NCBI GenBank assembly: GCA_021734045.1
Contig: JAIPJR010000034.1
Coordinates: 1 to 30,040, forward strand
Direction of reading: 5' to 3'
Length of the DNA: 30,040 nt
Origin: Fidelibacterota bacterium
GTDB lineage: Bacteria; Fidelibacterota; UBA8477
The position numbers and the translations under genes were made by a program. The notes beneath the pieces are model-generated. The model worked only from the letters and a program-made list of their open reading frames with translations. It had not been told where the DNA came from and ran no database searches. Positions 5 to 3,895 of this stretch are shown here, in pieces; the first letter of the stretch is position 1; each line of letters begins with the position of its first letter.

Positions 5-691
5 TCAGATTAACAGGTTTCGCATATCACGGATGGCGGTTTCCAGTCCCACGAATACAGCCCGTGTTATAATACCTTCACCCAGAATGAAATTTTCGAT
101 TTCCTCAATGGTCATAAGGGGCTGGACATTCTGATAGTGGAGCTGACCACGCACGGCAACACCGAGACGATTTTTTACAGCGGTTTTGGCTAAAATAGCC
201 AGTTGCTCCCGGGCTTCTGCCTGGGCAGGCGGATGGATGGCATTGGCATAGGTGTTAATGTCCAATTCCACATAATCACCACCCAGTTTATAGGCGTGCC
301 TTAGTTCGTTCACATCCGGTTTAATGCCAAAGGAGACGAGGCGCTGGCCGTCTTTTAACTGACCCACGAAGGTGTGCAGGTCTTTTTTATAGCTTTCGAA
401 AATGCCTTCACCGTAGAACGTGACCTGTTGAACCGGCAGGTCCAGGGCTGCCTGAACCAGATTGGCTTTTGGCAGCATCCGCAGGTTAAAGCGGCAGGTG
501 GGCGCGATTTGGGTCAGCATTTCCACCGTTTTTTCCGTTAACCCGTGTTGAGCGCCATTGTATGTACAGCAAAAGCCATTCACGCCGGAGAGTTGCGCGA
601 TATTCACCACGCCTGCGACGGAAAATCCGGCGCTTTTGGTGAGCTCATTCAGTTTTAAAAATGGATCCAGATTGAGTTCAAATTGTGCCAT
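5..691 (-). CDS. PdxJ-fold protein lacking PdxJ catalytic residues
   Basis: Homologue of pyridoxine 5'-phosphate synthase (PdxJ), 228 residues against about 240 in the family, complete with TGA stop. From residue 5 (ELNLDPF, like the PdxJ VNIDH segment) to the C-terminal TRAVFVGLETAIRDM block it follows E. coli PdxJ almost without gaps. The family's catalytic positions are changed, as I recall them: the HLRED segment holding His45 and Arg47 reads TYNGA (Thr43, Asn45); Glu72 of NLEM is Arg71 in NLRM; the His193 of NAGHGL falls on Gly. The Glu of FIEIHTG is kept (YVELDIN). It therefore probably does not make pyridoxine phosphate and may bind another ligand or be regulatory. The start has a good ribosome site (GAGGA) upstream. 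It lies 49 bp downstream of the deacetylase gene, so the two are probably co-transcribed. Fold assignment is confident; function is unknown. Confidence 0.8.
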   Translation of the reverse strand: MAQFELNLDPFLKLNELTKSAGFSVAGVVNIAQLSGVNGFCCTYNGAQHGLTEKTVEMLTQIAPTCRFNLRMLPKANLVQAALDLPVQQVTFYGEGIFESYKKDLHTFVGQLKDGQRLVSFGIKPDVNELRHAYKLGGDYVELDINTYANAIHPPAQAEAREQLAILAKTAVKNRLGVAVRGQLHYQNVQPLMTIEEIENFILGEGIITRAVFVGLETAIRDMRNLLI

Positions 692-740: not shown

Positions 741-1922
741 TTAGCGCAATAATTGCGTTACCGGAACGATTTCGTAACCCGCCTGCCGGAAAAGTGGCAA
801 ATAGCTCTCCAGCGCTGCCAGCGTGTTGGGCCGGCAATGGCCAATCGCTACAGCGGCGCCCCGCTCGGCGGCGATGTTGGCCAGGTGAATAAGTTCTTTT
901 TTTATGGCACTCACATCGTCCACATCATCCAGAAAAACATCCCGGCTGACGGTTTTTATTCCGGATTTCCTGGCCACCTCTTCCGCCACTGTTGCTGCAA
1001 TGGTCCGGCTATCCACAAACCAGAGATTTTTTTCCCGCAACCAGCGCATGACACTGGCCATTAAGTCCGCATCCTGGGTTGCACCGCTGCCCTGATGGTT
1101 GTTCAACCCCATGGCATGGGGGACGCTTTGGTAGGCTTCCTGCAAGCGCTCTTCCACTTCCACATCGCTTAATCCCGGCTTGATGACCAGCGCTGGTTCG
1201 CTGCTGGAATTGGTAATGGTCTCCATGGGCATGTGAATCATGATGGTTTTATTTGCCTGGTGGAGTTGTTGGGCGATTTGTGTGGAATAGGGGCGTTTGG
1301 GGATAATGGAATAATTCAGCGGCTCGGACATTTTCATGAATCCCTGGATCGTCCGGTTATAGGCATAGCCAAAATCATCAATAACGATGGCAATTCTGGC
1401 GCGACCGGATACCCGCTTCAGGCCGGTCGGCAGTGCGGTGGTGGCGGGTGCTTCTGTGTCACCTGCGGTGAGTTTGATCACCAGATCAGCCCAGATGGTC
1501 GAATCTGCTCCGATGGAAAAATGCCATTGTTCGCGTTGAATATTGCTGCTGATAATGGTAAATCCATATCCGCCCACTGTGTTCATCACAGCATCCTGAA
1601 TATCATTTTGCAGAATGGAAGTGTTCTGTGGCAGGCGATAGTTGTGGACAGAAATGCCACCGGGCTGTAATTCCACTGATTCAACTTCCAGAACAGGAAA
1701 GCGTTGCTGGAGGGATTTGTCCAGAATAGCATTCAGGGTGTAATACCCTTCGAAAAAGGCGTCCTGAGTTTGCGGTGGTGTTGCTGCCTGCGGGATGAGT
1801 CGTCCAATCCAGACGCCGGCAATGATGATGATGGCTAATAGCAGCACGGCTAATACCCATTGACGCCAATGCTTTTTGGGTGGGATTGAACCGGGTGGTG
1901 ATTCGAAATATTGATAGCGCAT
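741..1922 (-). CDS. divergent polysaccharide deacetylase (YibQ/DUF610 type)
   Basis: 393 residues. One transmembrane anchor at about residues 21-41 after a basic stretch (KKHWR), then a periplasmic N-terminal region of about 130 residues, then the divergent polysaccharide deacetylase domain (Pfam PF04748 family) from about residue 175 to the end. Visible motifs: IVIDDFG (Asp182, Asp183), IHMPME (His230), GLNNHQGS (residues 272-279), FVDSRT (Asp304), SRDVFLD (Asp328) and AIGHCRPNT (His362). These match the metal-binding and catalytic segments of the family, whose members are envelope proteins thought to act on polysaccharide or peptidoglycan amide groups; the substrate is not established. The start is the natural N-terminus before the anchor although no strong ribosome site precedes it. 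The PdxJ-like gene follows 49 bp downstream. Confidence 0.88.
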   Translation of the reverse strand: MRYQYFESPPGSIPPKKHWRQWVLAVLLLAIIIIAGVWIGRLIPQAATPPQTQDAFFEGYYTLNAILDKSLQQRFPVLEVESVELQPGGISVHNYRLPQNTSILQNDIQDAVMNTVGGYGFTIISSNIQREQWHFSIGADSTIWADLVIKLTAGDTEAPATTALPTGLKRVSGRARIAIVIDDFGYAYNRTIQGFMKMSEPLNYSIIPKRPYSTQIAQQLHQANKTIMIHMPMETITNSSSEPALVIKPGLSDVEVEERLQEAYQSVPHAMGLNNHQGSGATQDADLMASVMRWLREKNLWFVDSRTIAATVAEEVARKSGIKTVSRDVFLDDVDDVSAIKKELIHLANIAAERGAAVAIGHCRPNTLAALESYLPLFRQAGYEIVPVTQLLR

Positions 1923-2097: not shown

Positions 2098-2720
2098 GGT
2101 GAAGCGACACCGGGACCGGAAATCACAAATACCAAATTCCAAAAAACAAATAAATCTCAAGCCCCAAATAGCAATGACCGAAACAGCCGCGGTCCTGGTT
2201 AAGGTGGTTTGGAATTTCGGTCATTTGGATTTTGAATTGGTTTGAGATTTGATGCCTGGGATTTGGGCTTTCCTGTCTCCTTACGGTGTCGGGATTCAGC
2301 CAGGTGGTGAAATTGAGTGTGGTGAAGTGATACCGGGACCGGAAATCACAAATAGCAAATTCCAAAAGACAAACAAACCTCAAGCACCAAATAGCAATGA
2401 CCGAAACAGCCGCGGTCCTGGTTAAGCCGGTTTGGAATTTCGGTCATTTGGATTTTGAGTTTGTTTGTGATTTGATGCTTGGGATTTGGGCTTTCCTGTC
2501 TCCTTACGGTGTCGGGATTCAGCCAGGTGGTGAAATTGAGTGTGGTGAAATGATACCGGGACCGGAAATCACAAATAGCAAATTCCAAAAAACAAATAAA
2601 TCTCAAGCACCAATAATCAATGACCAAAACAGCCGCGGTCCTGGTTAAGGTGGTTTGGAATTTCGGTTATTCGGATTTGGAATTTGTTTGAGGTTTGATG
2701 CTTGGGATTTGGGTTTTCTA
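2098..2720. repeat. 223-bp tandem repeat, 2.8 copies, with internal inverted repeat
   Basis: The gene-free stretch 1923-2717 is mostly tandem repeat. Units begin at 2098, 2321 and 2544, exactly 223 bp apart; the third is truncated at about 2720, abutting the stop codon of the next minus-strand gene. By eye, units 1 and 2 differ at under 10 percent of positions. Each unit contains perfect 11-bp arms AATGACCGAAA / TTTCGGTCATT (unit 1: 2173-2183 and 2215-2225) around a CCGCGG-containing spacer. The arms extend outward as an imperfect inverted repeat rich in CAAATTCC / TTTGGAATTT words, so each unit could form a long cruciform or RNA hairpin. Similar AAATTCCAAA/TTTGGAATT-type dispersed repeats are known from other bacterial genomes. 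Open frames through it look like by-products of the repeat. In 1923-2097 I see nothing recognisable. Confidence 0.93.
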
Positions 2721-3296
2721 ATAATCCGACTCATCCTGCCACCGGACGATGCGCCAGAGGGCATCCGCGCCTTTGCGGAAGCTGAAAACGGCATTCCCGG
2801 TCACATGAATTTCCGTCCCGATATCCAAGTCAAAGGTTTTGGTAAAGCGTGCTTCATCAGCGGCAGCGATCTGTGCCGCTTCATCGGGCAGACTATCCAG
2901 CACCACACCCTGGGCGCGATATTCGGAGAACAGCGTGGCATTCCAAATCAGGTTAAAATGGTTGTAGGCATGAAAAAGACGGCTGGTGGTGCGTAATTCC
3001 ACATCCCGGCCCCAAAAGTTGTAATCCCCCGAGCCACCCAAATCAGGGTCGTAGTAGATGAAGACGAACCCAGTATCAATTATCTGTGAATAGATGAGCG
3101 AATCACGATAAATATAGGCATAACGCATGTTCTCCAGCACCTCTTCCGGTGATTGCTGGTTTGTCAAAGTCACGCTGTTGCCTCCCAAAATGTCGCCTTC
3201 CGTGGGCGCGAAAGGATTCCAGCAACCGCCCAGCAGTACGAACAGCAGTCCCGTCAGGGTGAATTGGAGAATGAGGCTTTTCCGCACACCGCTCAT
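2718..3296 (-). CDS. hypothetical lipoprotein, member of a paralogous pair
   Basis: 192 residues, function not recognised. A signal peptide with lipobox LLGGC puts the lipidated Cys at residue 25, followed by a Pro-containing linker, so the protein is probably anchored in an envelope membrane. The body is a single small domain of about 140 residues rich in aromatic residues, ending in WRIVRWQDES. The upstream lipoprotein ends in WQITRWEDAG and also shares the pattern of a helical start, a central GFxFI segment and an NxWGxxxE-like stretch, so the two are probably distant paralogues. The layout resembles NTF2/SnoaL-like folds, but this is only a guess. The start codon overlaps the upstream stop by 4 bp (ATGA), indicating translational coupling. 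The 223-bp repeats begin right at its stop codon. Confidence 0.78.
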   Translation of the reverse strand: MSGVRKSLILQFTLTGLLFVLLGGCWNPFAPTEGDILGGNSVTLTNQQSPEEVLENMRYAYIYRDSLIYSQIIDTGFVFIYYDPDLGGSGDYNFWGRDVELRTTSRLFHAYNHFNLIWNATLFSEYRAQGVVLDSLPDEAAQIAAADEARFTKTFDLDIGTEIHVTGNAVFSFRKGADALWRIVRWQDESDY

Positions 3297-3895
3297 TGTA
3301 GTGTTTTCAGGTAGGTCCAGGATGGCATTGAGTCATTACCGGCATCTTCCCAGCGTGTAATCTGCCAGTAATTATTATTCTGGCGCTTGATCAGCAGCAA
3401 CGCCCGGCCGGACAGGTGTTCCGGATAGGTTTCCCGGGAGGCGGTTTTGAATTTCAGGTGCAACTGATAATCGGCTTGGATTTGCATTTCGTCCAGGCTC
3501 AAAGTCGTTTCAATTTTATTAAACCAGGTTAGGGTATTGGTGGTATCGGTACTGAGGCGCGAAAATATGGCCTCCAGAAATTGACTTTCTTCTGTATAAC
3601 CCCAGTTGGTGAAATCCTGACCGCTGGTGTGGGCTACATTGGGATCGGGAATAAAGGTAAAGCCCTCATCGCTGGTGGCGGTGTCGGCCAGGACATCCAG
3701 GAAATACTTTTGATTCAATGCTTTAAACGCCAACTCCAAATCGGTGAGGACAATTTCCCAAGTGGTGGGTTGGAGCCATTGGTAGGGCGAATTGCCATCC
3801 GAGGGCGGTTGAGGGTCTCGCGGTTGAAATAATTCGCAAGCCGCCAGGAATAGAAATCCCACTAAAACCAGCAACAATATTTTTTTACACCGCAT
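3293..3895 (-). CDS. hypothetical lipoprotein, first gene of the pair
   Basis: 200 residues, function not recognised. Signal peptide MRCKKILLLVLVGFLFLAAC with a lipobox LAAC gives lipidated Cys20, then a Pro-rich linker (QPRDPQPPSDG). The remaining domain has a helical beginning (IVLTDLELAFKALNQKYF), a GFTFIPDP segment, an FTNWGYTEES segment and a C-terminal strand pair with WQITRWED. The same order of features and the W-x-I-x-R-W-x-D motif occur in the protein encoded just downstream. Its stop overlaps the next start by 4 bp, so the two are translated together and may act together in the envelope. No strong ribosome site was seen, but the start fits the signal peptide exactly. A possible NTF2-like fold is speculation. 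Confidence 0.78.
   Translation of the reverse strand: MRCKKILLLVLVGFLFLAACELFQPRDPQPPSDGNSPYQWLQPTTWEIVLTDLELAFKALNQKYFLDVLADTATSDEGFTFIPDPNVAHTSGQDFTNWGYTEESQFLEAIFSRLSTDTTNTLTWFNKIETTLSLDEMQIQADYQLHLKFKTASRETYPEHLSGRALLLIKRQNNNYWQITRWEDAGNDSMPSWTYLKTLQ

Follow-up and report, generated by a model that had tools for sequence, protein, structure and literature searches.

The window, by which we mean the whole stretch of 30,040 nucleotides analysed here, is one entire contig (C116) of a genome that is 92% complete, and it opens with a gene for a homologue of the vitamin B6 enzyme PdxJ in which the catalytic residues are replaced. The question raised by this locus is what such a protein is kept for, and why it is encoded beside a gene for an envelope deacetylase. 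The features that bear on it are the following.

5..691, minus strand: PdxJ-like protein, 228 aa, without catalytic residues and active-site loop (Pfam, NCBIfam, alignments)
741..1922, minus strand: divergent polysaccharide deacetylase, PF04748 (E. coli SddA/YibQ family; Pfam, 233 bits)
2718..3296, minus strand: small putative lipoprotein, cluster c3 (lipobox LLGGC by inspection; no Pfam family)
3293..3895, minus strand: small putative lipoprotein, cluster c4 (lipobox LAAC by inspection; no Pfam family)

Homology of the PdxJ-like protein

The PdxJ-like reading frame is intact from ATG to TGA. Its product matched the Pfam PdxJ family (PF03740) over the full length with 99.9 bits and an E-value of 1.6e-28 (gathering cut-off 24.5), whereas none of the NCBIfam equivalog models for PNP synthase gave more than 83 bits, with cut-offs of 190 and above. 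Identity to E. coli PdxJ was 24%. The closest named relative of the window is a Candidatus Marinimicrobia MAG (L032), with 79% identity in this protein. A profile of the PdxJ-like family matched PDB 1M5W across 225 positions (E 4e-38). An evident signal peptide was not found in the protein. As an AlphaFold2 model computed from an input of only two sequences, the window protein and one near relative, reached a pLDDT of 47.6 and was unusable, all statements on the pocket of the family rest on alignment.

Loss of catalytic residues and of the active-site loop

Residue equivalences were assigned relative to E. coli MG1655 PdxJ, with the reference sequence taken from the genome, and read from three concordant alignments: one of 37 sequences by L-INS-i, one including 84 additional family members, and that of the family profile with 1M5W. 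In PdxJ, we take His45, Glu72 and His193 to be the catalytic acid/base residues and Arg47 and His52 to bind DXP; all five were invariant among 23 canonical PdxJ sequences from diverse lineages. In the window protein His45 is replaced by Thr, Arg47 by Asn, Glu72 by Arg and His193 by Gly; these replacements had been listed by a first-pass annotation of the sequence, and all three alignments to the fetched reference agree on them. The annotation had also asked whether close homologues share them, and the loss proved common to the whole PdxJ-like family: among 35 aligned members, His45, Glu72, His193, Arg20, Arg51 and His52 were found in none and Arg47 in one, with Gly at position 193 in all 35.

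Of the 45 columns invariant in the 23 canonical sequences, just 13 show that residue in half of the family or more, with Glu153 among them but not His45, Glu72 and His193. The pocket positions that survive are Asn9 (30/35), Asp11 (35/35), Glu153 (32/35) and Gly215 (33/35), and the Gly226 position is also retained, while the DXP-side residues His12, Arg47, His52 and Thr102 are lost. The earlier impression that the protein aligns with PdxJ with hardly any gap needs correction, as it overlooked a deletion of about 8-11 residues, which takes out the mobile active-site loop (95-105) and leaves E. coli positions 100 and 102 as gaps in 35 of 35 members. In PdxJ, residues 95-105 form the loop that closes the active site (PMC10471632). 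The alignments thus support a loss of PNP-synthase chemistry, with fold-level homology to PdxJ apparently retained, across the whole family, and the window protein is almost certainly no longer a PNP synthase.

Distribution, selection and phylogeny in Marinimicrobia

A search of 245 Marinimicrobia genomes returned PdxJ matches in 49, of which 48 belong to the PdxJ-like family; 40 of these 48 sequences were read in alignment and the other eight assigned by profile score only. With the family profile, 47 of the 48 scored at least 198 bits, while the top score outside the phylum was 173 bits; the 48th (G024) is a divergent outlier with 66 bits, in which even Asp11 and Glu153 are gone. The sole canonical PdxJ (G139 contig 35, L057) was rejected as a contaminant on account of the contig order pyrE-DUF2062-pdxJ-acpS-signal peptidase, which we presume to be typical of alphaproteobacteria; this is the one case of contamination that was removed, and other genomes outside the window could be affected. 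The gene is missing from many Marinimicrobia families, and its absence from 197 of the 245 genomes implies that it is dispensable.

Where present, it is under strong purifying selection, with dN/dS values of 0.016-0.086 for nine close pairs; in two further pairs, synonymous sites were saturated. The family also has invariant residues of its own (E5, D9, R67, A133, D139, G182, G215), and together with the low dN/dS these mark a conserved working protein and not a pseudogene. In the phylogenetic tree, the Marinimicrobia family was separated from all other sequences with a support of 98/90; a single clade of all non-catalytic PdxJ proteins was not rejected (AU p 0.35), in a tree with long branches.

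Route of vitamin B6 synthesis

In the genome of the window, PdxS and PdxT are encoded adjacent to each other on contig 87, and neither PdxA nor a canonical pdxJ was found at 92% completeness. The check for a second, canonical pdxJ proposed in the first-pass annotation thus turned up the PdxS/PdxT route instead. PdxA is required for the PdxJ (DXP-dependent) route, so with PdxS/PdxT present and PdxA absent the genome makes vitamin B6 by the other route. In the phylum, PdxS was found in 59 of 60 Marinimicrobia, and PdxA was absent from 46 of 50, that of the window included; the PdxA-family matches in the remaining four (G043, G052, G058, G233) may be of the PdxA2 type.

Other lineages were sampled with one genome per family from a search of 400 genomes of relatives, and PdxJ-family proteins were read in all 79 genomes tested for PdxS. 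In six of these the only PdxJ is non-catalytic (G297, G298, G317, G289, G348, G334), and one further genome (G355) has a non-catalytic PdxJ and a second copy with His45, Arg47, Glu72 and His193 intact. Five of the six genomes with non-catalytic PdxJ only had a PdxS match above cut-off, against none of the remaining 73 (Fisher 2.7e-7, ignoring kinship among genomes; the count excludes the PdxJ variant L110 of G332, described below). G334 departs from this pattern, as both PdxS and a catalytic PdxJ are missing from it, perhaps owing to salvage or to a gap in the assembly. PdxA was absent in G297, G298, G317 and G348 and present in G289 and G355, as well as in all eight genomes with catalytic PdxJ that were tested.

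Genomic neighbourhood

In the window, 49 bp separate the PdxJ-like gene from the deacetylase gene, the product of which shows, on inspection, a membrane segment at its N-terminus. Among the 60 nearest Marinimicrobia, 36 carry the PdxJ-like gene, and in all 36 its neighbour on the contig, in the same orientation, is a gene for a PF04748 deacetylase. In 34 of the 36, the next gene downstream on that contig is one of the L-asparaginase II family (PF06089), sometimes overlapping; none of the three genomes in the genus of the window has this neighbour. Upstream, the c3 lipoprotein gene recurs 5' of the deacetylase gene in several families and in other lineages, and several families have both the c3 and the c4 gene, the products of which are distantly similar to each other. 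In the loci read, no pdxS, pdxT or other B6 gene was found beside the PdxJ-like gene.

In genomes without the PdxJ-like gene (families f6, f11 and parts of f13), the deacetylase and asparaginase II genes abut; this PF04748/PF06089 pair (cluster c2; L035, L036, L038 and others) is conserved across Marinimicrobia, whether or not the PdxJ-like gene lies between its members. At positions 2098-2766 of the window, between the lipoprotein and deacetylase genes, a 223-bp unit occurs three times in tandem (94% and 78% identity to the first copy), with long imperfect inverted repeats; the reading frames inside look like chance occurrences only.

The first-pass annotation had regarded the deacetylase as an unusual partner of pdxJ, a view that did not hold outside the phylum. 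In G301, G250, G245 and G380, the gene for catalytic PdxJ follows that for the deacetylase immediately or after one small ORF, and in G245 both lipoprotein genes precede the pair; G312 falls into the same class by coordinates, and in G378 catalytic PdxJ follows the two lipoproteins with one ORF between. As catalytic PdxJ thus adjoins the deacetylase in at least four other lineages, the deacetylase-PdxJ operon seems to be older than the loss of catalysis. Non-catalytic PdxJ in other lineages uses the same slot in part: it adjoins the deacetylase in G298 and G355, is a few genes off in G289, lies directly behind homologues of the two lipoproteins in G317, and is found away from any deacetylase gene in G297, G348 and G334.

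The last of these (L201 8270-10369) has the order cdaA-ORF-glmM-PdxJ, with non-catalytic PdxJ directly behind glmM, and in five other lineages (G335, G329, G337, G279, G258) it is catalytic PdxJ that directly follows glmM, the product of which forms glucosamine-1-phosphate. G334 is therefore a second case in which non-catalytic PdxJ occupies a position that is also found with catalytic PdxJ, and here, too, it lies beside a peptidoglycan gene.

Proposed function and alternatives

With the chemistry lost family-wide, no canonical pdxJ found and PdxS/PdxT encoded in the same genome, a function different from PNP synthesis is the best reading, as the first-pass annotation had proposed. We think there is about an even chance that the protein is a PdxJ-derived barrel retained in a non-catalytic, ligand-binding or regulatory role tied to the envelope operon. 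The ancestral operon would have comprised the two lipoproteins, the deacetylase and PdxJ; PdxS/PdxT would then have replaced the enzymatic job of PdxJ, and the PdxJ of the operon would have lost its chemistry in place. The protein may then have served the operon from the cytoplasm, by binding a ligand or as a regulator, probably without catalysis, and would use the remaining pocket positions Asn9, Asp11, Glu153 and Gly215. Direct contact with the deacetylase is unlikely, given the N-terminal membrane segment of the deacetylase, the periplasmic location of its E. coli relative and the lack of an evident signal peptide in the PdxJ-like protein. Compared to a direct complex, it is more plausible that the PdxJ-like protein controls expression or senses a metabolite in the cytoplasm.

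It is conceivable, though we hold it to be the less probable course, that the barrel was re-tooled into a new enzyme for another phosphorylated substrate, in which Asp9, Glu142, Arg67 and the invariant Glu5 would have taken on new functional roles. Conservation is indeed among the highest at the barrel-strand residues E5, N7, D9, R67, T91, E142, G182 and G204, the family profile has weak matches to phosphosugar barrels beyond PdxJ, for instance N-acetylmannosamine-6-phosphate 2-epimerase (E 4e-4), and a few members match the KGPDC and ThiE models. However, these weak matches cover short stretches and are of a kind common to the superfamily at large, the catalytic pair of the matched enzymes was not found in the family, the substrate-closing loop and Arg20 are lost, and even Gly215 is lost in some members. 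Chemistry like that of the N-acetylmannosamine-6-phosphate epimerase is accordingly a lead only.

A sensor of B6 vitamers or regulator of PLP metabolism, as suggested by the first-pass annotation, would fit the descent from PdxJ and the retained Asn9 and Gly215 positions, but with no pdxS, pdxT or other B6 gene adjacent in the loci read and the DXP-side residues His12, Arg47, His52 and Thr102 lost we regard it as improbable. That the protein is still a PNP synthase by way of other residues, for which full-length homology and the retained Asp11 and Glu153 positions could be cited, is hardly credible with the loop and all three acid/base residues gone, PdxS/PdxT present and PdxA absent; a decaying, functionless pdxJ remnant, which would account for the absence of the gene from many Marinimicrobia families, is just as hard to reconcile with dN/dS values of 0.02-0.09 and seven invariant columns across deep divergence.

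Going beyond the retained non-catalytic role in this operon, we tentatively consider, as a possible but rather unlikely generalization, that PdxJ has an old second function, separate from PNP synthesis and tied to peptidoglycan-related operons, behind an SddA-type deacetylase or glmM. The survival of non-catalytic PdxJ in the same operon slot would then show this second function alone, where the chemistry is no longer needed. If so, a textbook vitamin enzyme would have a part in the maintenance of the cell wall, and proteins in which the two functions are naturally separated would already exist for testing this.

Relation to known systems

Compared to PdxJ (PF03740, TIGR00559; PDB 1M5W), the family has full-length homology, retains Asp11, Glu153, Gly215 and Gly226, and holds a slot beside the PF04748 deacetylase as catalytic PdxJ does in some other lineages; it differs by the absence of His45, Arg47, Glu72, His193, His12, Arg20, Arg51 and His52, by the deleted active-site loop, and by its co-occurrence with PdxS/PdxT in the absence of PdxA. 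Among the papers searched, there was no description of a PdxJ-like pseudoenzyme and no paper on both PdxJ and Marinimicrobia. Catalytically dead paralogues kept as partners are described for trypanosomatid AdoMetDC prozyme (PMC5201418) and deoxyhypusine synthase (PMC3663545); there, too, an enzyme homologue is kept after the loss of catalysis, but it partners an active paralogue in the same cell, whereas the genome of the window yielded no active PdxJ.

For the deacetylase, the E. coli PF04748 protein SddA (YibQ) deacetylates denuded peptidoglycan strands at the septum, and its level is balanced through its operon structure with EnvC (PMC12440217). The genes for EnvC and for the PdxJ-like protein are alike in their stable linkage to a PF04748 deacetylase gene; EnvC is a periplasmic amidase activator, however, to which the PdxJ-like protein, without evident signal peptide, is unrelated.

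PdxJ has been used as the signature gene of the DXP-dependent B6 pathway, in a survey that reported ten genomes seemingly with both pathways and an incomplete DXP branch (PMC9997740); Caldithrix abyssi and Fibrobacter succinogenes are entered there as having both. Pfam by itself would wrongly assign the DXP-dependent pathway to the genomes described here, and some of those ten may be explained by a non-catalytic PdxJ.

Further PdxJ variants

Two more variants were noted among the other lineages. L110 (G332) is a PdxJ that is canonical except for Gln at the Glu72 position and Asp at that of Asn70. In a PdxJ group from five genomes (L088-L092; G304, G355, G371, G383, G305), Asp11-His12 is replaced by Asn-Lys and Gly194 by Asp, with His45, Arg47, Glu72 and His193 intact; the group forms its own branch with an SH-aLRT support of 100.
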